This document shows, piece after piece, positions 34,652 through 52,469 of a DNA stretch of 64,000 nucleotides. This stretch comes from Aureliella helgolandensis (GTDB taxonomy: Bacteria > Planctomycetota > Planctomycetia > Pirellulales > Pirellulaceae). The translations under genes were made by a program, and so were the position numbers. Position 1 is the first letter of the stretch; each line of letters begins with the position of its first letter. Below the pieces are notes generated by a model. It saw nothing but the letters and a program-made list of their open reading frames with translations, was not told where the DNA came from and made no database searches. The stretch covers positions 7,246,501 through 7,310,500 of the forward strand of contig NZ_CP036298.1 in NCBI RefSeq assembly GCF_007752135.1, given 5' to 3'.

Positions 34652-34836
34652 CTGAGACGAAGGAGTTTTAAACATGAAGGGGAGGACGCAATCCCTCCCA
34701 ACCTGCTGCGCTGCGACCAACACTTAGCTATCGCGCAAAATCCTCCCTTCGCATCCAGATTCAAATCTGCTACAAGTCCCCTACCCGGCCTTTGGAGCCT
34801 GAATTTTCGCAACTAAGTGTTAAGGAACCTGCAACC

Positions 34837-35751
34837 GTGCAAGGCTATGATTTAATCATGTTAATCGTTCTCGGGATGGCCACCATCTTCGGCGCGATTA
34901 AGGGCTTCGCTTGGCAAGTTGCATCCCTAGCGTCGATCATCGTAAGCTACTTCGTCGCCTACAACTTCCGCCTGCAAGTCGCGGACATGATCCAGGCAGC
35001 GCCGCCATGGAACCAGTTCCTAGCGATGCTGATCCTATACGTCGGCACCTCCTTTGTGATCTGGGTGGGATTTCGCCTGTTTAGCAGCGCCATCGATCGC
35101 GTTCGCCTGCGCGAGTTTGACCGGCACCTCGGGGCCGGATTTGGCTTGGCCAAAGGAGCCGTCTTCTGCCTGCTGATCACGATGTTCGCCATGAGCCTAC
35201 TGGGACCTAGCCAGCAGACTGCAATTTGTGAATCTCGATCGGGCTATTACATCTCCTACGTACTCGACCGCAGCATCGGAATCCTTCCGAAGGAAATCCA
35301 CGATGTTGTCGGCCCCTACCTCGATGGACTCGACGACAAGCTGAACAACCATACCGGTCACGATCATACGGTCGACGGATCGGAAGACGGAGCCGAAGCC
35401 GCATGGCCCATCAACCTAGACAACTTGAGCCTCAACAGCTTGCCAGCCATCCCGGAGGAACTCCGAAATGCCTTGCCTCCGATTGGGCTCCCCAATCTGC
35501 CAGGCAACGTACAACCAGCAAGCGCGCAGATCGGGGTCGGACCGAACGGGCAGGGGGGCTACGGCAATCCTGAAACGGGACGGCCAACACCAAACTATCC
35601 GTCGCAAAACTCGAACGCGACCTTCCCACCACAAAACTTCCCACCACTAGGCTCACAACCGGGCAGCGAATCGGGCGCGAATTTCGCCGCGCCTCCAGCC
35701 GCAAGCTACCCACCAGCCAACGGCATGCGAGTGGTACCCGCAGGATTCTAG
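34837..35751 (+). CDS. CvpA-family membrane protein with Pro/Asn-rich tail
   Basis: A 304-residue protein. Four membrane helices in the first 125 residues match the CvpA family (IMLIVLGMATIFGAIKGFAWQ and ASIIVSYFVAY). The C-terminal half is a polar, Pro/Asn/Gly-rich extension that the E. coli colicin V production protein lacks. The GTG at 34837 is preferred because AAGGA lies about 10 bp upstream; a TTG at 34792 is the longer choice. It is the last + strand gene before the dif-like site. Confidence 0.82.
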   Translation: MQGYDLIMLIVLGMATIFGAIKGFAWQVASLASIIVSYFVAYNFRLQVADMIQAAPPWNQFLAMLILYVGTSFVIWVGFRLFSSAIDRVRLREFDRHLGAGFGLAKGAVFCLLITMFAMSLLGPSQQTAICESRSGYYISYVLDRSIGILPKEIHDVVGPYLDGLDDKLNNHTGHDHTVDGSEDGAEAAWPINLDNLSLNSLPAIPEELRNALPPIGLPNLPGNVQPASAQIGVGPNGQGGYGNPETGRPTPNYPSQNSNATFPPQNFPPLGSQPGSESGANFAAPPAASYPPANGMRVVPAGF

Positions 35752-35940
35752 AAACACTCTGAATCGACCACCGTAAAACCAGCGACTGCACATAGCCCCA
35801 CGGCCCGAGACCCCCAACCCCAACGCGCCCCAATCCAATCAGGGCGAGCCGAAGACCACAGCCCCAACGAACAGCCAATCAACCAGCTTGAACAGAGACC
35901 GGGGCGACACACACCGGGCTAAGCCAGCAAGTGACAACGA

Positions 35941-35974
35941 CAGCCACATGACAGTGACAGCCACATGACAGTGA
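35941..35974 (+). repeat. Two perfect tandem copies of a 17-bp unit
   Basis: CAGCCACATGACAGTGA occurs at 35941-35957 and again at 35958-35974, followed by a degenerate third start. It lies about 90 bp left of the dif-like site. Confidence 0.85.
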
Positions 35975-36064
35975 CGCGACGTGACTCCACGAAGAAGCAG
36001 TGCAGGGAAAAACTGTACAGGCCAACAGCGGATTGCGTATTTCCCAGGGAAAAACGCAGGTCAA

Positions 36065-36092
36065 ACCGAACATAAGAAACATTATCGGACGT
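36065..36092 (-). other. dif: Candidate dif site (XerC/XerD recombination site, chromosome terminus)
   Basis: On the + strand the 28-mer consists of ACCGAACATAA (36065-36075), centre GAAACA, and TTATCGGACGT (36082-36092). Read on the - strand, the XerD-type arm is TTATGTTCGGT and the XerC-type arm ACGTCCGATAA around TGTTTC. The E. coli dif arms are GGTGCGCATAA and TTATGTTAAAT around TGTATA; 17 of 28 positions agree, including the contiguous blocks ATAATGT and TTATGTT. It sits in a convergent gap exactly where the polarity of GGGNAGGG octamers reverses. Identification rests on these two independent signs; no experimental or comparative check was possible. Confidence 0.7.
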
Positions 36093-37633: not shown

Positions 37634-38542
37634 CTACTGTTGCGGCATGACACGTCCCGTACTCTGGAAGTCATCAAAAATACTCTTGTCAGGAATCCGC
37701 GGTTGCTTCTTGAAAATTCGCGTGACACGCAGCGTCTTCAACAACTCCCACATTGAACCTGGTCGGTCTTCGGGTTTCTTGGCCATCATTGACCGGATCA
37801 CTGCCGTGAACTCAGGAGTAAGATTGTCGTTAGTGACCAGCGGCGACGGAATTGGAGCGGAGAGATGCTTGTTCAACAGGTCGTTGGGACTGTCGCCCGT
37901 GTACGGCAACTTGCCAGTTGCCAGCTCAAAAAAGACACACCCCAAACTGTAGATATCTGCGCGCCCATCGAGGACGTGATTGCGAATCTGCTCCGGAGAC
38001 ATATAGCTGCGAGTTCCTTGAACCGTCTTGGCCTTGCCACCAAACAACTTGCCGAGGCCCTTAGGGATCTTGCGGGAGATGGTAAAGTCAATGAGCTTGA
38101 CCTCCCCTTCCCGGCTGACCAGAAAATTGTCGGGCTTCACGTCGCAATGCACAAAGCCCTTCTCATGCATATGGAATAGTCCCTCAGCACTCTGCTGGCA
38201 GATTTTCTCCAACATGAAGGCAATCGATTCGGTTCCGCGCCGCAACGCCTGCTTCATGTTCAACTCGCTGAACAACTCCAATACGAGAAAGGGCGTATTG
38301 CTGCTCAACACGAGATCGTGCATGCGGATCACGTTCGGATGGTTCATCGCTTTCGCGATCTCAAACTCGGTCTTGAGCTGCGATAGCTCCAATTTGTCGG
38401 TGCGAAAGTCCTCGCGCAGGACTTTCAAGGCATAGCGATCGCCGGTTGCGGTCTCAATCCCCTCCCATACCTGACAAGTACTTCCCATGCGGATCAGTCG
38501 AGCTAGTCGATAAGGTCCTAAAAAGTCGCGTATCTTAGTCAT
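37634..38542 (-). CDS. Serine/threonine protein kinase, non-RD type
   Basis: A 302-residue cytoplasmic protein consisting of a kinase domain only. The ATP Lys is in YALKV, the helix-C Glu in LKTEFEIAK, and the catalytic loop reads HCDVKPDN in place of HRDLKPEN; the metal-binding motif is DFT instead of DFG, and the activation segment ends in SYMSPEQ. The catalytic Asp, Asn and metal-binding Asp remain, so activity is likely, but the missing Arg means activation does not follow the RD-kinase route. The glycine loop is also weak (RMGSTCQVWEG). No sensor domain or membrane helix is attached. Confidence 0.88.
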   Translation of the reverse strand: MTKIRDFLGPYRLARLIRMGSTCQVWEGIETATGDRYALKVLREDFRTDKLELSQLKTEFEIAKAMNHPNVIRMHDLVLSSNTPFLVLELFSELNMKQALRRGTESIAFMLEKICQQSAEGLFHMHEKGFVHCDVKPDNFLVSREGEVKLIDFTISRKIPKGLGKLFGGKAKTVQGTRSYMSPEQIRNHVLDGRADIYSLGCVFFELATGKLPYTGDSPNDLLNKHLSAPIPSPLVTNDNLTPEFTAVIRSMMAKKPEDRPGSMWELLKTLRVTRIFKKQPRIPDKSIFDDFQSTGRVMPQQ

Positions 38543-38959
38543 GCAGAATTCTTCACGGTATTGCGATTGCAGCTAAACGAGGTCGATTCCGCTGCGAATT
38601 TGTAGCGATCGGGAGGGTTAGAACCCCTCATATCATAGATGAATTCTCCCATTCGACCAAGCTGGATGCGGGGAGAGAGGGACCGGGGTGCGGGACAGGA
38701 CGCAATTCGCACGAGCCCCAAGGCCCTTTTCTACCTAAACCGCTCAATCAGATTAATTTCCCAGCCAGGCTATCCAACAGTCGCCGAATGAAAACGTCTC
38801 AGCCTGCGTACGCTCACACCCCAAACAGCCCCCTCGATCCGGCACCCCAAGGCAACCGCACGCGGGGTGGGGTTAGAATTGCGGTTAGGACGAGATTTGC
38901 CTGCCCTCGGGGGCCGTCCCCAAGCTCAACCGCGCCTTTAGACATACTCTGGCCCGGCC
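38543..38959. other. Intergenic region, 417 bp
   Basis: Between the kinase (upstream end) and the end of the glycosyltransferase gene. No gene, RNA or known repeat of the window is seen; the promoter of the kinase should be here. Confidence 0.4.
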
Positions 38960-40126
38960 CTAGGGACGCTGCTGGGGAAGCAATCGCTGATAGAGGGCGC
39001 GAATTTGGCGAGTCATCTGCTGGTGGCGGAATTGCTCGGTAAACCGGGCTGCGCCCCCCTGCCCTAGCCTGCTTCTTAACTCCGCATCCAGAGACAATTC
39101 GACAATCGCTTGCCTGAGCGGTTCGATCGATTTGGGAGGCAACAAGTAACCGGTCTGTCCCGGAAGAGCAACTTCTCGCGCTCCATCCACGTCGTAGCTC
39201 ACCACCGGCTTGCCAGCGATCAGGGCTTGAGGCAACGTCCTCGCCAACCCCTCGCGCAAACTCGTGTGAACGAGTGCATCCATGGCGCTCAAGTAGTACG
39301 GAACTCTCTCGGGCTCGACCAGTCCGGTGAAGCGAAAGTGGCCTTGCAAATGGCGTGACGCCAGTCGCGACTCCAACTGCTGCCGCAAAATCCCATCCCC
39401 CACCAGCAAGAATTTGCATTTCGGATTCTGGCGGATGGCACTCTCAGCAGCCTCGAGCAAATACTCGTGGCCCTTGAGGTGAAACAAGCGCGCGATCTTG
39501 CCAAACACCACATCGTCGTCTGCGAATCCCAACTCTTGTCGGGCCGCTTGTCGAAATTGATTGCAATCCCGAAAGGGCTCGACGTCCATGCCCGAGTAGA
39601 TGGTAGTGAATTTCTCTCGCGGGGCTACTCGGGATGCAACCATCAGATCGGTCATTGCATCCGCAACGGAGATCATGTGGTGACAGCGGCGTGCCGCCCA
39701 GCGCTCGAGACGGATGAACAAATGACGGGCCATCGCATTCTGATAGGGGTGGAACGGTGCGCCGTGGACCGTGTGCACCACTACCGGGACCCCACAACTC
39801 CAGGCTGCTGCGCGACCAAGAAATCCTCCCTTAGCACTGTGGGTATGCACGACGTCGGGATTGAACTCACGAATGCAGTCCACGAGGGCTCGGTAGGCTT
39901 GCCGATCTCGCGTCGGATGAATCGAGCGTCGCAGTTCATCGATAAACCTCAGTGGCAGCCCCCCTGCCCTCCCCTGCTCCAACAGTCGGCCTTCCGGCCC
40001 CAAGGCTGGGCCGGTGACCAACAGCACATCGTCGCCATACGCTTGCTGCAGATCCAAACAATTAAACAGCGTGTTCTCCTGAGCACCCCCTATAATCATT
40101 CGGGTAATTACATGCAGCACGCGCAT
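38960..40126 (-). CDS. Family 4 glycosyltransferase
   Basis: A 388-residue GT-B enzyme. The N-terminal domain has MRVLHVITRMIIGGAQENT, VVHTHSAKGGFLGRAAA and VHTVHGAPFHPYQ; the C-terminal domain has the nucleotide-sugar site HTSLREGLARTLPQALIAGKP and SYDVDGAREV. Such enzymes add sugars with retention of configuration in exopolysaccharide or lipid glycan assembly. Its ATG directly follows the truA stop (TAA-ATG), so it is the third gene of the asd-truA operon, an uncommon partner. Confidence 0.92.
   Translation of the reverse strand: MRVLHVITRMIIGGAQENTLFNCLDLQQAYGDDVLLVTGPALGPEGRLLEQGRAGGLPLRFIDELRRSIHPTRDRQAYRALVDCIREFNPDVVHTHSAKGGFLGRAAAWSCGVPVVVHTVHGAPFHPYQNAMARHLFIRLERWAARRCHHMISVADAMTDLMVASRVAPREKFTTIYSGMDVEPFRDCNQFRQAARQELGFADDDVVFGKIARLFHLKGHEYLLEAAESAIRQNPKCKFLLVGDGILRQQLESRLASRHLQGHFRFTGLVEPERVPYYLSAMDALVHTSLREGLARTLPQALIAGKPVVSYDVDGAREVALPGQTGYLLPPKSIEPLRQAIVELSLDAELRSRLGQGGAARFTEQFRHQQMTRQIRALYQRLLPQQRP
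39962..39974 (-). other. Two overlapping KOPS-like octamers, - orientation
   Basis: CCCTGCCC (39962-39969) and CCCTCCCC (39967-39974) are GGGCAGGG and GGGGAGGG on the - strand, pointing leftwards to the dif-like site at 36065. Their arrangement mirrors the + strand pair at 33472-33484. Confidence 0.5.
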
Positions 40127-40978
40127 TTAGAATAGTACTTCCGTCAAGAACAATCCGTGGGGGGGAGCTGTAGCTCCGGCACTGCTGCGATCCTGAGCTG
40201 CAATTACCTCCATGATCCACTCGGGCGGCTTGCGACCTACTCCAACTTGCACCAGTGTTCCGACTATATTGCGAACCATGTTGTAGAGAAATCCGTTGGC
40301 CTCAATTTCAATGGTCAGCAGCTGGCCATCCATGTAGGGTGCCGCAGAGACCGTCAAAGACCGCACGGTTCGCACCGTGCTGGAGCGTGGGCTGCCATTG
40401 GTTTGAAAGCTCGTAAAATCGTGCTTTCCTTCCAGCAGATGCGCCGCTGCTCGCATCGCGTCTACCGACACCCGCCGCCGAACCCACCAATGGGTATTGG
40501 ATTGGATCGGGTCCGATTTGCGGGAGCAATAAACCTGGTAACGATACCGCTTCCCAGTACTGTCCTTGATCGGATTGAAAGCTAGCGGGACTTCAACAGC
40601 CTCGCGGACAACGATATCCTGAGGCAGACTGATGTTCAACGCAAACGGCAACTTATCGGCCGGTGCATTCCAGTTCACCGTACGGATCACCGCTCGCTGC
40701 GCGAGGGCATGCACTCCCGTATCGGTTCGACTGCTGCCATGCACCACTACGCGCGGCTCTTTCAAGAGCTTAGAGAGAGTTTTCTCTAGCACCTGCTGGA
40801 CCGTTACATGGTCCGGCTGCAATTGCCAACCAAAGTAGTTCGCCCCGTTGTAGGCAATCGTCATCAGAAATGCGCGTTGCGTCCCTTCGGTCGATCCGGC
40901 AGGACCGGCCGCAGAGGACTCTGGAGCATCAGACGGTGGGGGCAGCGAATCCTCCCCCCCAGAACAAGAGTGGTTCAT
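40127..40978 (-). CDS. truA: tRNA pseudouridine synthase A
   Basis: A 283-residue protein. The catalytic Asp is in SSRTDTGVHA, and FALNISLPQDIVV, RYRYQVYCS and EIEANGFLYNMVRNIVGTL are conserved TruA blocks. It converts U38-40 of tRNA anticodon stems to pseudouridine. The start at 40978 overlaps the asd stop as ATGA. An N-terminal extension of about 35 residues rich in Ser/Pro/Glu precedes the usual TruA start (FLMTIAYNG). Confidence 0.95.
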   Translation of the reverse strand: MNHSCSGGEDSLPPPSDAPESSAAGPAGSTEGTQRAFLMTIAYNGANYFGWQLQPDHVTVQQVLEKTLSKLLKEPRVVVHGSSRTDTGVHALAQRAVIRTVNWNAPADKLPFALNISLPQDIVVREAVEVPLAFNPIKDSTGKRYRYQVYCSRKSDPIQSNTHWWVRRRVSVDAMRAAAHLLEGKHDFTSFQTNGSPRSSTVRTVRSLTVSAAPYMDGQLLTIEIEANGFLYNMVRNIVGTLVQVGVGRKPPEWIMEVIAAQDRSSAGATAPPHGLFLTEVLF

Positions 40979-41976
40979 CGCGCAGACAGCAACTTGCAAA
41001 TTTGAACCGCGTTGGTAGCCGCTCCCTTGCGCAAGTTGTCACTCACACACCAAAAGCTAATTCCACAGGGATGGTTCAGATCCTTGCGCACACGGCCCAC
41101 GAACACATCGGGCTGGTCGGCGCAATCGCGTGGCATGGGATAACTCTTGTTCGGCAAGTCATCGATGAGGGTCACCCCTTCAGCCGAGCGGAAAAGCTCG
41201 AAGATCTGCTCCAGCTCGAGCGGCTCTGCCGTTTCGCAATAGATCGATTCACTATGCCCGATCAACACCGGCACACGAACGCAGGTTGCATTGACTGCAA
41301 TGGAGTCATCCTCAAAGATTTTATGGGTCTCCAAGACCATCTTCATTTCTTCGGATGTGAACCCCGCATGCTTGTGCGAGCCGATCTGAGGAATCAAGTT
41401 AAGGGCGATATCGTGCTGGAAGATTGCAGCAGAACCGGTTTGTCCGGACAAACGTGACTGCGTGTTGTTGAGCAGTTCTTGCTGAGCCGCTAAACCAGCA
41501 CCACTGACCGCTTGGTAAGTACTGACCACCACTCTTTTCAGCCCGGCCGCTTGGCGCAGTGGATGGAGCGCAACCACCATTTGTGTCGTACTGCAGTTGG
41601 GGCTGGCAATAATGCCTTGATGTTTGGCAATTGCTTGCGGATTGACCTCTGGAATAACGAGGGGGACCCTGGGGTCCATCCGGTAAAAGGCGCTTTCGTC
41701 GACGACGACCGCTCCACGCTCAACCGCCCAGGGAACGCATTCGGCCGCGACTTCATCGGGCGTACTGGCAATAACGACATCCACCCCCTCAAAGGCGGCA
41801 GGTTCCATCAGCTCGACTGTAATGTCTTGGCCCGCGACCTGGACAGTCTTACCAGCCGAGCGCGAGGACGCGAGCAGCTTCAGCGCTTCGTACTGCACCC
41901 CCTGCTTTTGGATTTCCTCCAATACGATTTGCCCCACAGCCCCAGTCGCACCCACCACTGCCAATGTCTTGATCAC
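40975..41976 (-). CDS. asd: Aspartate-semialdehyde dehydrogenase
   Basis: A 333-residue protein with the NADP-binding motif VVGATGAVGQIVLEE, catalytic Cys in ASPNCSTTQM, and FTSEEMKMVLET. It reduces aspartyl phosphate to the semialdehyde that feeds lysine, diaminopimelate, methionine and threonine synthesis. It heads the operon asd-truA-glycosyltransferase, with a 4-bp overlap to truA. Confidence 0.96.
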   Translation of the reverse strand: MIKTLAVVGATGAVGQIVLEEIQKQGVQYEALKLLASSRSAGKTVQVAGQDITVELMEPAAFEGVDVVIASTPDEVAAECVPWAVERGAVVVDESAFYRMDPRVPLVIPEVNPQAIAKHQGIIASPNCSTTQMVVALHPLRQAAGLKRVVVSTYQAVSGAGLAAQQELLNNTQSRLSGQTGSAAIFQHDIALNLIPQIGSHKHAGFTSEEMKMVLETHKIFEDDSIAVNATCVRVPVLIGHSESIYCETAEPLELEQIFELFRSAEGVTLIDDLPNKSYPMPRDCADQPDVFVGRVRKDLNHPCGISFWCVSDNLRKGAATNAVQICKLLSAR

Positions 41977-42230
41977 GATTACCTAGTCCGCCTTCCAATG
42001 GGAAATTACTTCAGCCCCTGCCTTTTTCTGTCGAATTATGACAAGCCGCTAGTTTAATCGGCATGGGATAAATAGGACAGTCAGGCTACCTGAGTTCCCT
42101 GCTAGGCTAGGTATCGATGGGATTGTGGCCAATTTGGCCACAACAGCTCGTCAAAAGAGTACCCCGCCGCCTAACGAGCCGTTGAAATAGTGCCCTCCCC
42201 CGCGTGAGCAAGCTTGGGTGGAAGAACTGA

Positions 42231-42470
42231 AAGGCAAAACGCCCCTACTAGCTGTCCTCTTCACTTTTTCTGTCTCCATCTTTCTGTCCATTCCTCTTCC
42301 CCTTGCGTCCTAGCAGCTTTGCGCGCATCCCGCAGGCCGTTTCAGTTTTCACGCAACGGCGCAAAGCAGAGAAAAGCGGCTGCCATTCTACCGCACATCA
42401 ACTGCAGGCGATCCGCCAATCCGCCGCCTCGTTGATGTTCAGCACATCAATTTGCGTTGGATCTTTAGAG
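42231..42470 (+). repeat. Copy 1 of a ~240-bp intergenic block
   Basis: Shares long runs with the block at 42555-42797, for example TCTCCATCTTTCTGTCCATT, GGCCGTTTCAGTTTTCACGC and CGCCGCCTCGTTGATGTTCA. Contains the GCAAAG/TTTGCG type sequence common between genes in related bacteria. Confidence 0.85.
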
Positions 42471-42554
42471 CCCGGGGAACATGCTACTGGCGCTGGAGTA
42501 CCTGGCGACTAACGGGAGGTTGACAGGAAAATGGAGGCAGGAAGATGGGAGAAC

Positions 42555-42797
42555 AGAAAGACAACACTCCCCTGCTAACTGCCCTTTCACTATTTTCCAG
42601 TCTCCATCTTTCTGTCCATTCCTCTTCCCTTTGCGTCCTAGCGGCTTTGCGCGCAACCCACAGGCCGTTTCAGTTTTCACGCAAAGACGCAAAGAGAAGA
42701 AAAAGGCTGCCAATCTACCGCACATTAACTGGGGCGATCCGCCAAGCCGCCGCCTCGTTGATGTTCAGCACATCTGCTCGCGTTGGATCTTTAGCGA
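42555..42797 (+). repeat. Copy 2 of the ~240-bp intergenic block
   Basis: Direct repeat of 42231-42470 at about 85% identity by eye, separated by some 85 bp. The last bases of the window (63980-64000, TTTTTCTGTCTCCAGCTTTC) look like the start of a further copy. Confidence 0.85.
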
Positions 42798-43164
42798 GAA
42801 AATCGCGGCCTGGGGACTCCTGGGACTCGCTTTCGTCACCCCAGGCACCATGCAATCGCGACTCCGCAGCTGGCCGGGCTTGTTGAAAACACGCCGCTGC
42901 GCGAGCAAGGATGGTTGCTGCTGCACAGCAACTAGGGTACTACCTACGCGTTTCAACTCAAAACGCTACTAAATAGATCAACAGCCTTTCCAACACCTGC
43001 CCTTCACAGCTTGCATCCTGGGGAGCCGCACAGCTCCGGCCGGGAGTCCGCAAAAGTACAGTCAGCCCCCCCATTTTCGCGCACTACTGGGGTTGACTCC
43101 CCCTGCTATCTGGCGTGCACTGTGTACATCCGCCAGCTTCCTAACTTCCCATCGAGGCACATCA

Positions 43165-45414
43165 ATGCGTCTTCAGCACTCTACGAGTCCCCGGATCCTT
43201 CGCCGGCGAACCTCAAATAGCATCACACGAGCTACCCGACTGCTGCGGACCGAGCAATTAGACGCGCGGATAACTTTGTCGGGAACCCCCTTCGACCTAT
43301 CGGGAATCACGACAACCCTGTGGGTTGATCAGCAAGCTCAAGTTGCCCAACCGACAGGCGCCCCAACCTCTCCCTTTGCTGAAATTTCCTCTGCGGTCGC
43401 TTTGGCCGGGCCAGGCACGGAGATCGTCGTCAGGGATGGTGTTTACCGCGAGGAACTTCGCTTACCGGCTGGTACGGCAACAGCCCCCGTGGTTCTGCGA
43501 GCTGCCGACGGGGCAACTCCCATCCTCAGCGGCTCCGACTTGATTGACGGCTGGACCTCTCTAGGGGGAGGCGTCTACGAAACGACGATTTCCTGGGAGC
43601 CAACCGCGTTGTACATCGGCGGAGAAGAAGCTACCAACGCGCGTCATCCCGACGATGGCTGGTGGACTGTCGACACACTGGGCGAGAGTTCCTTCGTCGA
43701 CTCAGCCTTAATTGGACTCGAGGCCAACTTAGTCGGAAGCGAGTTCTTCGTATGGACCACGCATGGCAACACGCAATTCACGGTGCCGATCACTGGGTTT
43801 GATTCGTCGACTGGCACGATAACCTACGACTCCCCCAGTCAGTACCTGCAACTCGCCGCCGGGGACAGCTATTGGCTGCAAAACGATAGTGCCTTGGTCT
43901 CCCAAGCTGGAGAATGGGCCTGGGAGACGATTGATGGCTCAACACATATTGTTGTTCAGGTAGAAGGTCCTGCAGACCTTGCGCAAATTGAATCACCACG
44001 GCGACGCGATGGGATTCAAGCAAGCCAGTTTTCGCTAGTGGAAGGTTTCTCCGTCCGACAGTTTGAACGGTACGGTGTAGATATGACTGGAGCCAATTCG
44101 GTCACCATTGCCACCTCTATCGTTGAACAAAATGGAAAGGCTGGCGTATGGATGCGTGGGGCCACAAACCTGCTGATTGAAGGAAACCAAATCGTCGAGA
44201 ATCAGTATGGCATGATTGCAAACGACAGTCGTCATATTCAAGTTGTAAATAATGAAGTTGCCTACAACGCGGTCGACGGCATCATCATTTCCTGGGGCAG
44301 TACCGATGTCCTGATCGAAGCGAACTACATCCACCACCATCTCGACTGGGGGCATCCCGATGGAATTCAGCTCTATCGTGACGTCTCAAACGTTAGGATT
44401 ATTGACAACGTAATTGCCGCCAACGGGCAAAGCATGCACATCCAGGAAGCTGATGATGTGAGCCTATCAGGCAACACTATCTACGGCTCCAGCGGCTATC
44501 TCGTTTCGTTGTTTGCTACCAATAGCAGTGTGGATGGCAATACTCTCGCCTTTTCAGGCTACGGTCTACTTCGCCTGCCGCCAGAAGAACTGTCGATAAC
44601 AAGCAACGTTTTTAATGTCGGGCATGGCAAACCTGCCTATGTGTCGCATGAAGCATTGCAGTATGAAGCAGACGAGAACCTCTACTGGAATTCTTCGAGA
44701 GCATTAAATCCAATGTTCCTCAGAACGGCTGAAGGCTGGCAACGCAATTGGGATCAATATCAATCGGGTAACGAGCATGATCAAAATTCAGCTTATGGTA
44801 ATCCCGAACATATTAACGCTCCGATTGCGTTCGATTCTGCCAAATCGCGTGAATCAACCCACTCAGTTCTCGCACTCAATACCCATGAAGTGCTGTTCGA
44901 AGTTGGTGATTTCGTCGAAGTGAATTTTGACGGAGTCCAACGCCAAATCACCGCCAAGTCTGCCGATAGAATCACCATATTTCCTCCGCTCGAAGAGCTC
45001 ACCCGAACGACACTCGTCGCCAATTGGGGCACGAACAGCAACTTCAATCTAGACTTACGAACTTCACCAAGCAGTCCCCTGCCAACAGCCGGTTCAACGC
45101 TGAATATAGGATTATTTCAATCAAGGCAGTATGGAGCCCCCCTGCCTGCCCCGGCAATGTTCTCCAGCACGGTCCTCCACGAACCTCAGAACCTCACTTC
45201 CGAAACATCACACGCGACTGCCCTCCAACCAAGCCCGTCGCGGGCGACTCTGCAAGCGACGGAGCGACGGGCGTTGCTCTCCCTTTCCGGCAGTCCAGCG
45301 AAGCAATCAGCCTTCGTGTCTCCGAGTCCTGCAGAAGATTCTAGTATCAGCCAAACGGATAGCGTCGACATCGCACTGCTTTCCCTGTTCGAGCAAGTGG
45401 ACGCGACCAAGTAG
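43165..45414 (+). CDS. Secreted right-handed parallel beta-helix protein with LEPR-XLL-like N-terminus
   Basis: A 749-residue protein. The N-terminus has RATRLLRTEQLDARITLSG, which fits the LEPR-XLL pattern (LRxExLExRxLLS) that planctomycetes use at the start of large exported proteins. Residues about 50-100 resemble the Pel/DUF1565-type start (FAEISSAVALAGPGTEIVVRDGVYREEL), and about 290-460 form NosD/pectate-lyase-like helix coils with repeated N-V-I patterns (VEGFSVRQFERYGV, GNQIVENQYGMI, NNEVAYNAVDGI). It may bind or cleave polysaccharide. It is the only intact non-mobile + strand gene right of the dif-like site, and lies among repeats, which hints at transfer. Confidence 0.82.
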   Translation: MRLQHSTSPRILRRRTSNSITRATRLLRTEQLDARITLSGTPFDLSGITTTLWVDQQAQVAQPTGAPTSPFAEISSAVALAGPGTEIVVRDGVYREELRLPAGTATAPVVLRAADGATPILSGSDLIDGWTSLGGGVYETTISWEPTALYIGGEEATNARHPDDGWWTVDTLGESSFVDSALIGLEANLVGSEFFVWTTHGNTQFTVPITGFDSSTGTITYDSPSQYLQLAAGDSYWLQNDSALVSQAGEWAWETIDGSTHIVVQVEGPADLAQIESPRRRDGIQASQFSLVEGFSVRQFERYGVDMTGANSVTIATSIVEQNGKAGVWMRGATNLLIEGNQIVENQYGMIANDSRHIQVVNNEVAYNAVDGIIISWGSTDVLIEANYIHHHLDWGHPDGIQLYRDVSNVRIIDNVIAANGQSMHIQEADDVSLSGNTIYGSSGYLVSLFATNSSVDGNTLAFSGYGLLRLPPEELSITSNVFNVGHGKPAYVSHEALQYEADENLYWNSSRALNPMFLRTAEGWQRNWDQYQSGNEHDQNSAYGNPEHINAPIAFDSAKSRESTHSVLALNTHEVLFEVGDFVEVNFDGVQRQITAKSADRITIFPPLEELTRTTLVANWGTNSNFNLDLRTSPSSPLPTAGSTLNIGLFQSRQYGAPLPAPAMFSSTVLHEPQNLTSETSHATALQPSPSRATLQATERRALLSLSGSPAKQSAFVSPSPAEDSSISQTDSVDIALLSLFEQVDATK

Positions 45415-45453
45415 TCGGCTACCACCGAATCCCCCCGAGCGCCGAGCAAAAAA

Positions 45454-45503
45454 GCGACGACAAGACGCAGCACTCCCCATTGACTGCGATGACTCGTCAT
45501 CGC
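45454..45503 (+). repeat. Triple-palindrome 50-bp element, copy 1
   Basis: A degenerate first palindrome (GCGACGACAAGACGCAGC, 45454-45471), a 14-bp spacer ACTCCCCATTGACT, and a perfect second palindrome GCGATGACTCGTCATCGC (45486-45503; 8-bp arms, 2-bp centre). Confidence 0.8.
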
Positions 45504-45626
45504 TTTGGAGTGGACGGGTGGGCGGTTGCAGATATGCCACCGAACGGGCGATCTCCAGCAAAACAAGATCTGCTCTCGGGCGGGACTGGCCGTCACTGAC
45601 AAATCCCCTGGCCGCCGGGCAAGAAA

Positions 45627-45676
45627 GCTGCGACAAGTCGCAGCACTCCATATGGACTGCGATGACTCGTCATCGC
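45627..45676 (+). repeat. Triple-palindrome 50-bp element, copy 2
   Basis: Palindrome B GCTGCGACAAGTCGCAGC (45627-45644), spacer ACTCCATATGGACT with a central CCATATGG palindrome, and palindrome A GCGATGACTCGTCATCGC (45659-45676). All arms pair perfectly. The B arms differ from copy 49884 by a compensating A-T to G-C change. Confidence 0.9.
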
Positions 45677-45799
45677 TTTGGAGCAATTGCTTGGGCCAGA
45701 GCAGTTAAACCACCGAGCGGTTGATCGTGTCCAATCGAAGCTTTTCCCTCAGTCCATGCTCGCCGGCGTTGGCCAATCTACCGGCTGCCGGGCAAGAAA

Positions 45800-45817
45800 G
45801 CCACGACAAGACGCAGC
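45800..45817 (+). repeat. Partial element: degenerate palindrome B only
   Basis: GCCACGACAAGACGCAGC preceded by the usual CCGGGCAAGAAA and followed by ACTCCATATGG, after which the similarity to the element stops. Confidence 0.7.
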
Positions 45818-46488
45818 ACTCCATATGGCGGTTCCAACGCAACGGCACACACCACCATGATTGCTAGCAAGGCTACTCAAGTGGACTACTGTGTGTATGT
45901 CATCTGTTTGCATTCATGGGGCGTTCTGCTTTAAAATGCGTGTGGTTACTCGTGACGCACGCAGACACATGGAGGATTGAAAATGCTCAATTCACACTCC
46001 AGCGGAAGCGACTTTTCGGGGAATGGATCGTGCGATGCGCGGTTGCAGAAATTGATTGCTAGGCTTCGAGGTCTGACCACCCCTGAACTTAACCAGCTTG
46101 AGCAGCTGCTTTCGGATTTAGAAGCCAAGCGATTGGACTCGAAACCGAGTGGCTCTGCACGCCCCATAAGTTTAGAAATTCGCAATTCAGATTCGAAGTC
46201 ACTTGATTGGCCCCATGCACCAATCCATCGCATCGCGGAAGCAGGAACATACTTTGTTACCAGCGGAACTTACGGGAAACAGCACTTCTTTCGTTCCCCT
46301 ACCAGCCTATCCGCCCTCCAGCAAGAGTTGTTGGCGAAAGCAAAGCAATACGGCTGGCAACTTGAAGCCTGGGCCTGTTTTTCCAATCACTACCACTTCG
46401 TTGCACACAGTGAAGCAAATGCTACAAAGCTGGATGTATACCTGACACATCTTCATGCCGACACCGCTCGAAAGCTCAACGAACTAGA

Positions 46489-48329
46489 CCTTAAATAAGT
46501 ATATGCCGGATGTGTTTTGGGCAGTTGGTGGAGGCGCAGCGGCGATCTGCTGGCGGGACCAGCGGGGGATTTTTCGGTCGTGAATTTCAGGCATCGGTCG
46601 GTCAGGTGCCCTGCGGGCGGTTTGAGGCTGGCGGCGGTACTGAGGCTTACATACCTCAGCTTCGTGATTTCGGCACTCACTCAAGCGCGAAGCGAACCCA
46701 GCGATTGAACACATGCAGAGATTCGCTCCATGACAACAGACGGACCACCAACTGCCGTCCACTGCGAACGATCTGTGCCGGAAGTCGCACGAACTGTTCT
46801 ACGAATTGTTTGAACTCCATGCGGATCACAGCCCGACCTTCTTGCTTGTGTTGCTCACGCCAGCGTCCGTTTATCGGAACGCTCAATCCGATCCACGCTT
46901 TCAAGTTCCACGACAGGGCCGTCATCACCATGTAAGCCCAATTCGATTCCAGGTTGTCCACCGGCGCGTGGAGCGCCCGGCACTGATTTAACTGAGCCAA
47001 GATGTACTCTTGGTCACAGCGATCGTTGCTGGCATACACAACGTCATTGGTGCTGAGCACATCGCCCGCTTCGTTGGTCAGGTAGAAGAAGTACAGACAG
47101 TCGTCGAACAATCGACCCTGCTTGGTGACTTCTAGTTCTTTGCAAAGGATCACTAAGCGGTAGGTCTCTTTGCAATCGGTGGGGCTGTAAGGAACCTCGG
47201 TGACCCACTCTGAAGTCAGACGCTTGTTGGGGTAGCCACGCAGCTGGACAATCTGTTCTTTCACGTTCTCAGGACGGTCTCGGTCAGGTGTATTCGGGGC
47301 GTATTTGGGCGAGCGAGGCAACTGCTTCCAAGCGTCAATTTGCACGTTTTCCGCGATATCGACGAGTCCCGGGTAGGCCTTCATGCCAAAGGTGAACTTC
47401 ACGCCTGCCCGGTGCCAGCGGTCCAGATGAATCGTTTGAGTGAACGCGGTGTCGCCTCGCAGAACGATTCGGCGAAAGCCTGCCTGGCGACAAAGCGAGA
47501 TCGCCGTGTCGGCTTGCTCGGCTGCGCCTTCTTGGCTGGGACGATTGCCGCTACGGTTGACCAGGCGTAAAGCTTCGCCCGTTTCGGCCAACGTTATCAC
47601 CAACGGATGGTAACCCCAGATGCCTTTGTAGCTGATGTCCATTCCCTCTTTGCACTGACCGGTTGTTTCGACGATCGTGCCATCCATCTCGATGGTCGCT
47701 TGATCGAAGAACGCATTGTCTTGTTGTTGCCAGATATCCAAGCGAACTTGATCGAAGGCATCTTGCAAACGATTAATATGATAGGGATCGAATCGGCGAC
47801 AGAAGTCTCCTGCGGTGGTTGGATCGGGGATCCTTTCGGCTCCGATCGAATCGAGAAATGACTCATCGTTGCGGCGCAGTTCAATGTCCTCCAAGCAAGT
47901 TCCTCCGCAGAGCGCGTTATAAGCCAAATTCAAAACATGATCGGATTCATGATAGGGGCGATGGATTTTGAACAAGTGCAAGGCATCGTCGATCCGTTTC
48001 GGCAGTCCGATCTTCTTTGCGAATCGATGGATGGCGGCGACGCCCCCGTAGGCGGTCCCGCCTGCTTTTTGTGCCAGCTCATACGCAATCTTGTCCCCTT
48101 TGAGCATGGGGTGTCCGCGATCGTGAGCAGCCGAATTCTGTAACCTGTTCTTGATACGTCGTTTGCGTTTTCGAATCAAATCTGCTTTAATCGTCTTCAC
48201 TCGAAATCTCCATCGTGGTTAGCGAGCGGCTTGTTGGGCTGGTGAAAAAAGACCAACAAACTGCAGGATATTTCGAGTTTTTTTATGCGCAAATGCTCCG
48301 CCAAGCAAGTGGAGTACGCTTGTTTAAGG
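46489..48329 (-). mobile_element. IS1380-like insertion sequence, 1841 bp, complete
   Basis: The ends are CCTTAAATAAGTATA at the left and, read from the right, CCTTAAACAAGCGTA; the first seven bases match, then scattered positions. It is flanked by the direct repeat ACTAGA (46483-46488 and 48330-48335), the target duplication. It carries a single transposase gene on the - strand and about 190 bp of non-coding sequence at the left end. Confidence 0.92.
46677..48200 (-). CDS. IS1380-family DDE transposase
   Basis: A 507-residue protein with a basic N-terminus (KTIKADLIRKRKRRIKNRL), a DNA-binding domain and the RNase H-like DDE core: IEMDGTIVETTG (first Asp), RRIVLRGDTAFT (second Asp), and a C-terminal DCLYFFYLTN and YVMTALSWNLKAW region. 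It resembles transposases assigned to the IS1380 family. Intact length suggests it may still be active. It reads opposite to the RAYT it interrupts. Confidence 0.92.
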   Translation of the reverse strand: MKTIKADLIRKRKRRIKNRLQNSAAHDRGHPMLKGDKIAYELAQKAGGTAYGGVAAIHRFAKKIGLPKRIDDALHLFKIHRPYHESDHVLNLAYNALCGGTCLEDIELRRNDESFLDSIGAERIPDPTTAGDFCRRFDPYHINRLQDAFDQVRLDIWQQQDNAFFDQATIEMDGTIVETTGQCKEGMDISYKGIWGYHPLVITLAETGEALRLVNRSGNRPSQEGAAEQADTAISLCRQAGFRRIVLRGDTAFTQTIHLDRWHRAGVKFTFGMKAYPGLVDIAENVQIDAWKQLPRSPKYAPNTPDRDRPENVKEQIVQLRGYPNKRLTSEWVTEVPYSPTDCKETYRLVILCKELEVTKQGRLFDDCLYFFYLTNEAGDVLSTNDVVYASNDRCDQEYILAQLNQCRALHAPVDNLESNWAYMVMTALSWNLKAWIGLSVPINGRWREQHKQEGRAVIRMEFKQFVEQFVRLPAQIVRSGRQLVVRLLSWSESLHVFNRWVRFALE

Positions 48330-48606
48330 ACTAGAGCAGCAACCCGGTCGTAAAGTGTGGTACAACTTTCGCGACACCAAGTTGACCTACCAGAAATCCT
48401 ACTTGGCGCGTCTCAACTATGTCCATCAGAATGCAGTGCGACACGGACTTGTATCTGTAGCAAATCAGTATCGTTGGAGCTCCGCAGCTTGGTTCGAACG
48501 CACTGCTCGCCCTGCCCAAGTACGCACCATCTACAACTTGAAAACAGATTGTGTTCGCGTACAGGATGACTTCAATGTAGTGATCGATGCTTGATGGCTA
48601 TGAACT

Positions 48607-48624
48607 GCGATGACTCGTCATCGC
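48607..48624 (+). repeat. Palindrome A of the 50-bp element, standing alone
   Basis: GCGATGACTCGTCATCGC followed by TTTGGAG, as in the complete copies, 12 bp after the RAYT stop. Confidence 0.85.
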
Positions 48625-48747
48625 TTTGGAGTAAACGGGTGGGCGGCTGCAGATATGCCACCGAGCAGTTGATGTCCAGCAAAACAAGATCTGCTCTCGG
48701 GCGGGACTGGCCGTCACTGGCAAATCCCCTGGCTGCCGGACAAGAGA

Positions 48748-48765
48748 GCTACGACAAGTCGCAGC
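48748..48765 (+). repeat. Palindrome B of the 50-bp element, standing alone
   Basis: GCTACGACAAGTCGCAGC, one mismatch in the stem (A against C), preceded by GCCGGACAAGAGA. It ends 14 bp before the 3' end of rmlA, so this copy lies just downstream of that gene. Confidence 0.8.
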
Positions 48766-48779
48766 TGTCCATAAAAACC

Positions 48780-49679
48780 CTAGCGTCCTTCTTCGGCGAT
48801 CTGCCGGAGGTAGGTACCGTAATCGCTCTTGAAGCCATTGGCCAAACTCAACAACTGCGCACGATCAATAAATCCACCTCGAAATGCGATCTCCTCGGGG
48901 CAGGAAATCTTCATCCCCTGCCGCGACTCGAGCGTTTCCACAAAGGCAGCTGCTTGATTGAGCGAGGCAAACGTGCCGGTGTCCAACCAGGCGAAGCCGC
49001 GAGAAAAGGCTTGCACACTCAACTCTCCGCGACGCAAATATTCCAGATTCACATCCGTGATCTCCAGCTCACCGCGTGCCGAAGGCTTGAGATCTCTGGC
49101 AATTCCCACCACCTGCTGGTCGTAAAAATAGAGGCCTGGAATGGCAAATCGTGATTTGGGTCGCTGGGGTTTTTCCTCCAAGGAAATAGCTTTTCCGGCA
49201 GCGTCAAATTCAACCACCCCATAACGCTCCGGATCACTCACGGGATACGCAAATACGGTGGCTCCTTCGGATTGAGCCGTCACGTGTTTGAGCATCGCTT
49301 GAAACCCTTGGCCGTAGAAGATATTGTCCCCCAACACCAGCGCCGACGGGGATTCTCCAATGAAGTCGTCTCCGATCTGGTAGGCCTGCGCCAGCCCCTT
49401 CGGTTCGGCTTGCGCCGCATAGCTGAACTGCATCCCCCAGTCGCTGCCATCTCCCAACAATCGCTCGAACAACGGCAGGTCATGCGGCGTGCTGATCACC
49501 AACACTTCCCGGATACCGGCTAACATCAGTACTGAAATCGGATAATAAATCATCGGCTTGTCATACACCGGTAGCAATTGCTTGCTGATCGCGCGAGTGA
49601 TCGGGTGTAAACGAGTCCCAGAACCGCCTGCTAATACGATTCCCTTGCGTGCTGCTGTCATCGAAATACTACCTGGCAT
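48780..49679 (-). CDS. rmlA: Glucose-1-phosphate thymidylyltransferase
   Basis: A 299-residue protein with [62 protein letters not shown] and [10 protein letters not shown], all RmlA landmarks. It makes dTDP-glucose from dTTP and glucose-1-phosphate, the first step towards dTDP-rhamnose. Starts at 49679 or at the ATG 49661 (MTAARKG) are both possible. rmlB and an rmlD-like gene follow at 50-52 kb on the same strand, separated by repeats. Confidence 0.95.
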
Positions 49680-50162
49680 TCTGGAGGATCAATTGGTAAA
49701 TCGGTGTTGTCAAACGTGGATTAAATTACATTTTTTGAGTTTCAACGCGAAGGTAGCGTCCCTAATTGCCTTGTAGCGACAACCACCTTTCCTTGCTCAC
49801 GCGGCGGGTTACTATTTTTGCGAGCCCTTCCCTAGGGCCGCGTCTATGTGTTCTGGCGAGTTGCTTGGTTGCCGGGCAGGAAAGCTACGACAAGTCGTAG
49901 CAGTCCCTATGGAGTGCGATGACTTGTCATCGCTTTGTGGTAACTACTTGAAGCCGAGTCGTTAACCCACCGACCAGTTGACCCTCCACAATTCAAGTCC
50001 CTCCGGCTTGTTGATCTAAGAGCAATTTTAGTTTTAGCGCGGAGGTCGCACTGCAAATTGCCCTATAGCGACAACCACCTTACCTTGCTCACGCAGCGGG
50101 TTACGATTTCAACAGCCCGTCACGCGGCGGGTTACGATTTCAACAAGCCTTTACGCGGCGGA
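49680..50162. other. Repeat-rich region between rmlA and rmlB
   Basis: 483 bp: one reversed GAGCAAGG-family copy (CCTTGCTCACGCGGCGGG near 49790), one complete triple-palindrome element (49884-49933), another reversed family copy near 50084 and a short tandem array that runs into rmlB. No gene. Confidence 0.65.
49884..49933 (+). repeat. Triple-palindrome 50-bp element, copy 5
   Basis: Perfect B GCTACGACAAGTCGTAGC (49884-49901), spacer AGTCCCTATGGAGT, and perfect A GCGATGACTTGTCATCGC (49916-49933). The spacer is the reverse complement of that in the copy at 63531, and the A centre is TT instead of TC. Confidence 0.92.
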
Positions 50163-50178
50163 CTACGATTTTGACAAC
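50095..50178 (-). repeat. Three degenerate tandem units (ACGCGGCGGGTTACGATTTC)
   Basis: The unit ACGCRGCGGGTTACGATTTC-AACA occurs three times (near 50095, 50121 and 50152), the last as ACGCGGCGGACTACGATTTT. The last unit supplies the final codons and the stop codon of rmlB. Confidence 0.7.
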
Positions 50179-51248
50179 CGGCTCGCATCGGCCACGTGGC
50201 CTAAACGCTCGCCAGCATAGTTGGCGGAGGAAGCCGCATCGACCCAGGCTTGGTTCTCTAAGTACCAAGCAATGGTCTGTCGCAAGCCATTTTCGAAATC
50301 GAGCTGAGGCTGCCAGCCTAACTCGGTGTGCAATTTGCCAAAGTCGATGGCATAGCGTCGATCGTGGCCAGGACGATCCTTGACAAAGGTAATCAAATTC
50401 CGCCGCGGTCCTCCGGGCAAGGCTCCAGAGAGTTCATCGACCACGTCACAGATGGTTTGCACCACTTGCAGATTGCTTTGCTCGTTGTCACCTCCAACGT
50501 TGTAGACCTCCCCTACCCTGCCCTGCTGCAAAACCGTTTGAATCGCCCGGCAATGGTCTTCGACAAACAACCAATCCCGAACGTTGCTTCCATCGCCATA
50601 CACGGGCAACGCTTTACCAGCGATGGCATTCAGTGTCACCAACGGAATCAACTTTTCAGGAAATTGGTAGGGTCCGTAGTTGTTCGAACAATTGGTGGTC
50701 AGTACCGGCAAACCGAAGGTGTGATGGTAGGCTCGTACGAAATGATCCGAGGCGGCTTTCGAGGCGGAGTACGGTGAATTTGGGCGGTAGGGTGTGTCTT
50801 CACGAAATAGCCCCGTGGGCCCCAACGATCCGTAGACTTCATCGGTAGAGACATGCAGAAAACGGAAATCCCGTTGCGTCTCTTCCGCCCGCTGTCGCCA
50901 CCACTGGTAAACGCGGTCGAGCAGATTGCAGGTCCCTACGACATTGGTTGCCACAAAGGCAGCGGGGCCATCAATGGAACGATCCACATGGGATTCTGCA
51001 GCAAAATTAACAATCCAATCAGGCTGATGCTCCTCCAACAACGCTTCGACCAATTGGGCGTCACCGATATCCCCCTCCACCAATTGATACCGGTCTGCCG
51101 GAGCATTGGGCGTCGAAAGCGTCGTGGCGGCGTAGGTGAGCTTATCTAAGTTCACCACCCGCACTTCAGTAGAATCTTGGAATAGTTGTCGAATGAAACA
51201 GCTACCGATGAACCCCGCACCTCCGGTGACCAGAATGGTTCTATTCAA
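50163..51248 (-). CDS. rmlB: dTDP-glucose 4,6-dehydratase
   Basis: A 361-residue short-chain dehydrogenase-type protein: VTGGAGFIGSCFIRQL (NAD site), AAESHVDRSIDGP, STDEVYGSLG and YSASKAASDHFVRAYHHTFG with the YxxxK pair, then NNYGPYQFPEKLIPL. It dehydrates dTDP-glucose to the 4-keto-6-deoxy sugar. The last ten or so residues (DASRLSKS) are encoded by an intergenic repeat unit, so the C-terminus has probably been changed by repeat invasion. Confidence 0.96.
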   Translation of the reverse strand: MNRTILVTGGAGFIGSCFIRQLFQDSTEVRVVNLDKLTYAATTLSTPNAPADRYQLVEGDIGDAQLVEALLEEHQPDWIVNFAAESHVDRSIDGPAAFVATNVVGTCNLLDRVYQWWRQRAEETQRDFRFLHVSTDEVYGSLGPTGLFREDTPYRPNSPYSASKAASDHFVRAYHHTFGLPVLTTNCSNNYGPYQFPEKLIPLVTLNAIAGKALPVYGDGSNVRDWLFVEDHCRAIQTVLQQGRVGEVYNVGGDNEQSNLQVVQTICDVVDELSGALPGGPRRNLITFVKDRPGHDRRYAIDFGKLHTELGWQPQLDFENGLRQTIAWYLENQAWVDAASSANYAGERLGHVADASRLSKS

Positions 51249-51530
51249 TGCTCAAATCCTTGGAAGTAAAGAGTTAACTACCGACGGCTCTCCCTTCCCA
51301 GGCAACGCCTTGGAACGAAGAGCGGTTTTTACAAACTTCTGCTCCCTCCCCCTCAGTACTCTGCAGGAGAAGATTGGGGTTTAATCCCCTTCCATTTCAC
51401 CGTGTCACTCGCGCTCGTATTTCGTGCTCAGCTCGTGCTCGTGCTCGAAACTCCCCATGTACAAGTACTCCTCTCCCTACACCCTCTCCCCTACGCCCCC
51501 TACTCCCTCTCTCTGCACCGTCGTCGACAA
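51249..51530. other. Intergenic region with pyrimidine-rich tract
   Basis: 282 bp between rmlB and the rmlD-like gene. It holds a CTCCCTCCCC octamer (- strand KOPS-like, 51344-51351), short CGTGCTC repeats (about 51410-51450) and a C/T-rich tract (51470-51520). No gene. Confidence 0.5.
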
Positions 51531-52421
51531 CTAAGTCGCAGCCCCCACCTGCGGTGCAGGTTGCCAGTTGTCGATGGCCAATTGAATCACATCGCGCACC
51601 GGTGACAGCGGCAATCCGGCAGCCAATGCTTTGGAGTTATCGAGGACCGTATTGGAACGTGGCGTTTTCGCAGCCAGTCGCATGAACTCTTCTTCATCCT
51701 CAAAGAAATCGAACTGTTTATTGCTCAGCCCCGAACTACGGAGCATTTCGACAACTTCGCGCGTCGTCACACTACCGGTGTTAGTCACATTGTAAATACC
51801 GTAGGGCACCGAATGCTGCCAGCAATACAGGCACGATTCCACGAACTCCCGCAGATGCGAGAGACTGTTGGTCGCATCCAGCAGACGTTGGTAATTCATC
51901 ACTTTGGAAAGGTAGTTGCGAGGTGAATCGCGATGATCGAAAGGGATCCTCAGCCTCCACACATAACACTCCTTTGCCCCCTGCAAGCACTCCTCTCCCA
52001 GCGCCTTGGTCCCCGAATAAAAGCTGCAGTTATCTTGTCGGAAGGAGAAGTTGGGTGGGTCCAATTCTGTAAACCCACTCCCATCCGCTTTAGTCCCGGT
52101 ATAAATGCAGCCGGAAGAAACATGTCCCCACGGAATGCCTGCTTGCTCGCAAGCCGCAGCCAGTCGCTCGGGGAGAACCGCATTGGCCAGCAAGCATTCC
52201 CCTCGCTGCAATTCACAAGCATCCACGTTGGGCTTGCCAGTAAATCCGGCGCAATTGACTAGAAAGCTAGCGCCCGAGGAACGCAGCAACTCGGCCAACG
52301 CCGCCACGTTGTAGAGGTCCACGTCTCGATGCCCAACACATTGGTAGGGGATATTTTGTTGCTTGCATACGCGTGCAAACTCGCTGCCAACATAGCCCGT
52401 TGAACCTAGCAAAATGATCAA
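51531..52421 (-). CDS. RmlD-like dTDP-4-dehydrorhamnose reductase or sugar epimerase/reductase
   Basis: A 296-residue NAD(P)-dependent SDR: ILLGSTGYVGSEFARV (nucleotide site), FLVNCAGFTGKPNVDACE, HVSSGCIYTG and FYSGTKALGEE (YxxxK). Position next to rmlA and rmlB suggests the reduction step to dTDP-rhamnose, but the sequence is closer to UDP-rhamnose synthase-like reductases than to a textbook RmlD, and rmlC is not in the window. I leave the symbol blank for this reason. Confidence 0.85.
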   Translation of the reverse strand: MIILLGSTGYVGSEFARVCKQQNIPYQCVGHRDVDLYNVAALAELLRSSGASFLVNCAGFTGKPNVDACELQRGECLLANAVLPERLAAACEQAGIPWGHVSSGCIYTGTKADGSGFTELDPPNFSFRQDNCSFYSGTKALGEECLQGAKECYVWRLRIPFDHRDSPRNYLSKVMNYQRLLDATNSLSHLREFVESCLYCWQHSVPYGIYNVTNTGSVTTREVVEMLRSSGLSNKQFDFFEDEEEFMRLAAKTPRSNTVLDNSKALAAGLPLSPVRDVIQLAIDNWQPAPQVGAAT

Positions 52422-52469
52422 TGCAATACTCCGGAAACTCTAGGATTTAAATTGGATGTTTGTAGCGTT

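Follow-up and report, generated by a model that had tools for sequence, protein, structure and literature searches.

The placement of dif at the replication terminus is treated as a rule. A review places the site there (PMC5357621), in Proteobacteria and Firmicutes dif, outliers included, is no more than 3% of the genome length away from the skew shift (PMC3025954), and in Archaea dif is found 120 to 142 degrees from oriC, in putative termination regions (PMC2958812). In Escherichia coli, FtsK acts in about 400 kb around dif, which works where KOPS converge, and the experimental displacement of termination left FtsK activity there unchanged (PMC3140498). The survey of Kono et al. (2011) predicted dif in 641 organisms but had no success with Cyanobacteria or Planctomycetes (0 of 1) (PMC3025954). 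Within the latter phylum, budding is the mode of division in Planctomycetia and binary fission that in Phycisphaerae (PMC10591338), and of the dcw genes of Planctopirus limnophila, which lacks FtsZ, ftsK alone is essential (PMC12283558). As far as the available portions of these papers and of the open-access PMC literature go, we found no report of dif or KOPS in Planctomycetes, or of a bacterial dif off the terminus.

The window analyzed here is a stretch of 64,000 nucleotides from the genome of Aureliella helgolandensis, a member of the Pirellulaceae in the class Planctomycetia; in this stretch a preliminary description had pointed out a candidate dif site. Reading the letters of the window confirmed the 28-mer, its 11-6-11 spacing, its 17 of 28 identities to E. 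coli dif read on the minus strand and its convergent gap. As seen on the plus strand, positions 36065 to 36092 read ACCGAACATAA-GAAACA-TTATCGGACGT, and the gap is bordered by a CvpA/Colicin V-type gene (plus strand) and accA (minus strand), with their 3' ends facing the 28-mer. The layout is that of dif, with two 11-bp arms, a 6-bp centre and an ATAA/TTAT dyad. The features of the locus are as follows.

36065 to 36092, minus strand: proposed dif site, 28 bp, reading ACGTCCGATAA TGTTTC TTATGTTCGGT from the XerC arm to the XerD arm; found once in the genome, conserved at class level, and with the architecture of the sites of other phyla
36065 to 36075, minus strand: proposed XerD arm, with a TTATGTT core as in E. 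coli dif; its outer four bases are variable across the class
36076 to 36081, minus strand: 6-bp central region, where the site varies most between order-level loci
36082 to 36092, minus strand: proposed XerC arm ACGTCCGATAA, invariant in 27 of the 27 order-level loci that have the site
36035 to 36057, no strand given: imperfect palindrome GCGTATTTCCCAGGGAAAAACGC beyond the XerD arm, with a core like TTTCCC-GGGAAA
36309 to 37370, minus strand: accA (acetyl-CoA carboxylase carboxyltransferase alpha; Pfam PF03255, E 4e-133), a frequent neighbour of the dif site in relatives
34792 to 35751, plus strand: gene for a CvpA/Colicin V production-type membrane protein (Pfam PF02674, E 3.5e-24), the convergent neighbour

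The TTATGTT core suggests that the arm at 36065 to 36075 belongs to XerD, and the arm at 36082 to 36092 is putatively assigned to XerC. By computation, this is a conserved single 28-bp site with convergent KOPS, encoded in a genome with the matching protein set and located off the skew terminus. We consider it very probable that the 28-mer is the chromosome dif site, serving dimer resolution by KOPS-steered FtsK and XerCD, and that it lies off the replication terminus.

The locus resembles the E. coli system in the 28-bp length and 11-6-11 spacing of the site, in its ATAA-n6-TTAT core with TTATGTT on the XerD side, in the presence of XerC, XerD and an FtsK with a gamma domain, and in the KOPS consensus GGGNAGGG (PMC3140498) converging on the site. 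Unlike in E. coli, the planctomycete XerC arm is ACGTCCGATAA, the site is off the replication terminus, accA is a recurrent neighbour, and an extra palindrome is found outside the XerD arm. However, the 17 identities to E. coli dif are at chance level, as 17 is equalled at two more places in the window and exceeded, at 18 to 19, in a 400-kb control region; the match alone is therefore no evidence for dif, and the evidence is comparative. Matching to E. coli or Bacillus subtilis dif, taken alone as proof, fails to single out the 28-mer. A dif consensus pattern at 3 mismatches matches 59 places in the genome (33 forward and 26 reverse, the 28-mer being one among them), with 19 for a reversed control.

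Sites of similar form were found in other bacteria. The pattern AACATAA-N6-TTATCGGACG, scanned over named genomes, matched at least 119 stretches, which were sorted by title into 78 planctomycete stretches (Phycisphaerae excluded) and 41 others (other phyla, Phycisphaerae and unplaced bacteria). Several of the others show the canonical dif form, for example ACGTCCGATAA TATATA TTATGTTAACT in Alicyclobacillus and Bacillota; in such pattern-found sites the arms are partly fixed by the search pattern, and the outer AACT and the centre TATATA are free. The sites of Alicyclobacillus, Desulfobacterales, Acidobacteria and Phycisphaerae are like the one described here in their TTATGTT core and, in most, in the XerC arm ACGTCCGATAA, a likeness that is partly due to the construction of the search pattern, and they differ from it in the outer XerD arm, which is often AACT.

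Conservation in relatives places the 28-mer beyond chance. A search for accA in 40 genomes (this genome, G000, and 39 relatives) gave matches in 38, and the 30 best matches were cut as loci. When the same gap was aligned in these relatives, a check proposed in the preliminary description, the 28-mer was found in 27 of the 30 accA loci (own included), at 23 to 28 of 28 letters and identical in 18; it was not found near accA in the other three (L084, L093 and L102). Across the 27 loci, AACATAA and TTATCGGACGTT are invariant or nearly so, the outer left bases excepted, and the differences cluster in the 6-bp centre. As judged from the alignment of the order-level loci, the 28-bp boundaries originally given fit the conserved block, which exceeds the 28-mer by one or two bases on the TTATCGGACGT side (T in 27 of 27, then G in 24 of 27). 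At class level, the arms are present at up to 3 mismatches in 314 of 397 genomes, with 7 for a reversed-pattern control; the remaining 83 gave no match to the site at 3 mismatches. Phylum-wide, 214 of 392 match a pattern at up to 2 mismatches. Conserved arms around a variable centre, the arrangement looked for in a dif site, were thus found among the relatives.

The letters flanking the site are mostly dissimilar, even within a genus. A TTTCCC-GGGAAA-like core recurs about 10 to 25 bp outside the XerD arm in many Pirellulales loci (L079 to L108), where most other flanking letters are unconserved, and this palindrome is a possible candidate for the site of an accessory protein. In the gap to the left of the dif site, a 17-bp unit is present in two tandem copies at 35932 to 35965.

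As for the neighbouring genes, accA is found at the dif locus in 47 of the 78 named planctomycete loci (among the matches listed), 16 of 30 in family f23, 8 of 9 in f22 and 0 of 4 in f21, at a distance from under 100 bp to about 5 kb, and a CvpA-type gene is present at 39 of the 78 (among the matches listed). This adjacency across families suggests that the accA-dif neighbourhood is old; its chromosomal place varies. The frequent closeness to accA would also be compatible with a regulatory or RNA element of accA or cvpA, such as an operator or terminator, but we regard such a role as extremely unlikely, since the site lies here at the 3' ends of convergent genes, its distance to accA varies, and 2 of the 27 loci (L082 and L108) have it turned around with respect to accA. 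Moreover, the 6-bp centre is the variable part while most flanking letters are unconserved, and KOPS polarity switches at the site, as described below.

A chromosome dif site is looked for as one site per chromosome, and this was found here: the 28-mer occurs once in the 8,439,957-bp one-contig genome (search at up to 3 mismatches), and 100 shuffles of the window gave no match to it. All of 37 genomes picked for one or few contigs match the dif site at up to 3 mismatches. Among the one-contig relatives, 30 of 31 have exactly one zero-mismatch match, the best match in G029 having one mismatch; G052 and G081 have an additional 2-mismatch match close by.

Further copies were seen in certain groups. 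Family f21 carries diverged dif copies, several on small contigs: dif-like sites with 0 to 3 mismatches are located on plasmid-sized contigs of G079 (C3, of 181 kb, C4, C5, C6 and C8), G195 (C2 and C3), G071 (C4) and G135 (C2), and the large contigs of G079 and G135 gave no dif match at 3 mismatches. Sites on plasmid contigs would be expected from dimer resolution per replicon. In family f23 (L129 to L158), 19 genomes have dif-like sites in both orientations, as inverted pairs 64 to 98 bp apart with unlike centres (among the pairs listed), for example in L129 at 1501 and 1599. Additionally, 88 stretches of viral contigs (L159 to L246) carry a dif-like site without KOPS polarity, and these contigs are candidates for phages integrating through the host Xer recombinases. 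The viral stretches, the plasmid-contig copies of some f21 genomes and the inverted pairs of many f23 genomes could all be taken to indicate an Xer-type site with another job, such as an integration site for phages or mobile elements, in place of dimer resolution. Nevertheless, the single zero-mismatch match in nearly all one-contig genomes, the plasmid copies being what per-replicon resolution would give, and the convergence of KOPS on chromosomal sites and not on viral ones make that job highly unlikely. Separately, in a genome of family f26 (G085), a pair of dif-like sites lies 55 bp apart.

The distribution of KOPS octamers supports the reading of the 28-mer as dif. In the window, they are arranged as follows.

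1630 to 35555, plus strand: 13 KOPS octamers GGGNAGGG to the left of the site, with 6 on the minus strand; on balance they point to the site
38105 to 57127, minus strand: 13 KOPS octamers to the right of the site, with 0 on the plus strand; they point to the site

Within 200 kb, GGGNAGGG is found 39 times on the plus and 18 times on the minus strand to the left of the site, and 5 and 51 times, respectively, to the right (Fisher p 3e-11). Of the 57,072 octamer patterns that leave one position free and occur 40 times or more, it ranks first for polarity converging on the dif site (z 6.3, spread 1.05). The bias extends to about -140 kb and +180 kb before fading, and to the left of the site its polarity opposes the GC skew of the strand. 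Elsewhere in G000 no net bias was found, with plus/minus counts of 8/12 in ten stretches of one arm and 12/14 in nine of the other. In G020, KOPS are denser near dif, at 51 per 100 kb versus 18 per 200 kb sampled elsewhere. Both results differ from E. coli, whose KOPS are described as biased round the whole chromosome at similar density in the available part of the source (PMC3140498).

The same polarity was observed in four other genomes within 50 kb of the site (plus/minus, left; right): G020 (30/1; 6/31), G074 (9/0; 0/11), G170 (32/2; 2/19) and G030 (13/1; 0/12). Pooled, these give 84 plus and 4 minus to the left and 8 plus and 73 minus to the right, and GGGNAGGG ranks first of 61,623 (z 11.2). 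The best KOPS switch interval brackets the dif site in all five genomes, which was reached in 0 of 2000 sign shuffles for each (regions centred on the site); in G000 two intervals are tied, one bracketing the site and the other 1.3 to 2.6 kb away. Furthermore, GGGCAGGG is first among its 56 letter permutations, with 114 convergent versus 5 divergent occurrences. Opposite KOPS thus converge on the site, as looked for around dif. Within 10 kb in four further genomes, the counts are 5/0; 1/5 in G043, 2/0; 0/1 in G081 and 3/1; 2/3 in G218, where the signal is weak, and G253 gives no support (0/0 left, 1/0 right).

Short loci gave a similar picture. At the 78 named planctomycete loci (up to 8 kb, among the matches listed), KOPS counts are 129/23 to the left and 13/94 to the right, and at 29 loci of family f23 they are 14/0 and 0/15. 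KOPS also converge on the pooled sites of the other groups, as they do here (31/5 and 6/23 at 41 loci, among the matches listed), and the 88 viral loci, used as control, show no polarity (35/28 and 27/30).

A weaker KOPS switch was found at the skew terminus, at 4.197 to 4.227 Mb, which 29 of 2000 shuffles reached and which may be explained by GC skew. This switch, together with the tendency of G-rich words to follow the replication strand, raises the question of whether gene orientation or base composition produces the KOPS polarity as a side effect, around a site that is conserved but has an undefined role. Such an origin is barely conceivable given that GC skew does not switch at the site, that two scans, each of different genomes, both place GGGNAGGG at the head of the one-N octamers, and that GGGCAGGG comes first among its own permutations.

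The proteins that would act at a dif site are encoded in the genome. XerC is encoded at 3.715 Mb (TIGR02224, 348.3 bits; cut-off 335.15) and XerD at 7.208 Mb, 74 kb from the dif site (TIGR02225, 353.8 bits; cut-off 329.6); phage-integrase-family matches number 25 in all. FtsK is encoded with alpha, motor and gamma domains (gamma PF09397, E 2e-23). Along with PF09397 it has PF17854, whereas P. limnophila FtsK is described as lacking PF17854 in the available part of the source (PMC12283558). The identification as dif put forward in the preliminary description is thus supported by class-wide conservation with a variable centre, by convergent KOPS and by the presence of XerC, XerD and an FtsK gamma domain.

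As we infer it, XerC would bind ACGTCCGATAA and XerD would bind TTATGTTCGGT, and the two would recombine the site. FtsK would be steered there by GGGNAGGG octamers converging over roughly 140 to 180 kb on each side, and its gamma domain would activate XerD at the site, so that chromosome dimers would be resolved there during division.

The position of the site is a different matter. The preliminary description had also claimed that the window straddles the terminus, and this is refuted by a skew extremum far from the site, which was the ground for refutation that it had itself named. As seen in the 8.44-Mb genome, GC skew changes sign near 0 (dnaA) and near 4.21 Mb, and the cumulative skew peaks near 4.21 Mb (contiguous 3.9 to 4.3 Mb), opposite dnaA at 820, and not at 36 kb of the window. 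Eighteen of twenty 20-kb samples round the chromosome fit an excess of G over C between 0 and about 4 Mb and of C over G beyond it, the exceptions being those at 2.66 and 4.88 Mb. The dif site, at 7.28 Mb, is about 3.07 Mb, or 36% of the chromosome, from the skew peak and 0.137 of the circumference from dnaA, and so is not opposite dnaA/oriC. Within about 200 kb of it, skew is negative in 20 of 20 bins of 20 kb (-0.027 to -0.121), with no switch. The absence of the usual dif correlate, a cumulative skew extremum at the site, counts against dif.

The 400 kb surrounding the skew terminus gave no dif match better than the site: the best score there is 7.7, versus 31.5 for the site, on a matrix of 68 rows that excludes the class and is partly circular, since the same pattern had served to find most of the rows. 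The idea of a second dif at this terminus was rejected for those 400 kb, 7.7 being below the 10.8 reached in a shuffled control.

Across the class, the distance between dif and dnaA ranges from 0.082 to 0.495 of the circumference in 32 one-contig chromosomes (G000 included), with a mean of 0.31; dnaA is here the shorter paralogue where two exist, and most chromosome lengths are rounded to 0.1 Mb. Three of the 32 (G052, G218 and G043) are within 3% of the dnaA antipode and 10 are under 0.25. The distances depart mildly from uniform (KS p 0.037), so that dif may be drawn slightly away from the origin. Four more one-contig genomes of the class, outside the 32, gave 0.284, 0.365, 0.374 and 0.09. 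With respect to skew, the switch lies near 0.5 in G020 (dif site at 0.082), between 0.55 and 0.65 in G074 (0.304) and between 0.05 and 0.15 in G253 (0.211), and the samples of G170 show no clear pattern. The sign of the skew does not change across the dif site in G020, G074, G170, G253, G043 or G081; in G030 and G218 one of the two sides has a skew close to zero. By skew, the off-terminus position is firm for G000 and reasonable for G020 and G074; in the other one-contig genomes it rests on dnaA, usually present as two paralogues.

These data also bear on whether the site could be both dif and the true terminus, with GC skew misleading because of, for example, a recent rearrangement or a mis-assembly. 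The near coincidence of dif and skew shift in Proteobacteria and Firmicutes (PMC3025954) and the three chromosomes with dif near the dnaA antipode speak for it. Against it, 18 of the 20 skew samples of G000 fit switches near 0 and near 4.21 Mb, and its skew is negative to either side of the site; in G020 and G074, which belong to two other genera, the site also falls inside one skew arm; and one rearrangement cannot explain distances of 0.08 to 0.495 in 32 chromosomes in which accA is often kept. We therefore consider a terminus at the site very unlikely.

Two DnaA-type genes, one shorter and one longer, were observed in most planctomycetes examined; in G000 they are at 820 and 4856530, with the shorter at the skew minimum. 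Other classes of the phylum, among them the binary-fission Phycisphaerae, carry more than one DnaA-like gene per genome.

In the off-terminus reading, dif and its local KOPS appear to be uncoupled from replication termination. We lean towards this uncoupling being class-wide, such that in the Planctomycetia, which are reported to bud and to have no FtsZ, the last-handled part of the chromosome would be set by dif and a local KOPS basin, usually anchored at accA, and not by the end of replication. On one possible reading, FtsK at the bud neck would meet the dif region and not the terminus. The Legionella dif/XerL system is similar in having a conserved short intergenic site for dimer resolution; there, however, the genes flanking dif vary and its position at the skew inflection is constant (PMC9765430, available part), and planctomycetes show the reverse, with a neighbour that is often constant and a position that varies.

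If a class keeps dif, KOPS, XerCD and FtsK but has dif located elsewhere, the requirement of FtsK, a KOPS switch, would be set apart from the product of replication, a terminus. The displacement of termination in E. coli was experimental; in planctomycetes nature would have done it. The site also supplies a dif for a phylum in which the broad survey, as given in the available part of the source, had failed (PMC3025954), and it is relevant to the question of why, of the dcw genes, ftsK alone is reported as essential in P. limnophila (PMC12283558, available part).

The accumulation of insertion sequences and repeats to the right of the site had been taken to fit a terminus region, a claim that did not hold. 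An REP-like intergenic repeat with core GTGAGCAAGG was observed in the window at 33608, 36186, 37474, 49791, 50083, 57283, 58855, 61178, 61402 and 61542. It is present on both sides of accA, at 15.6 per 100 kb in the window versus 2.0 to 2.5 in regions sampled elsewhere, and is denser around the dif site than at the skew terminus (28 versus 9 in 400 kb). In the 100 kb round the dif site of each of four relatives its count is 0; repeats were therefore rejected as a general mark of the terminus. Likewise, the 19-bp repeat GTAATCTTGATTACGACAA at 60454 to 60472 is one of nine copies genome-wide, with eight at other places, and is probably part of an insertion element.
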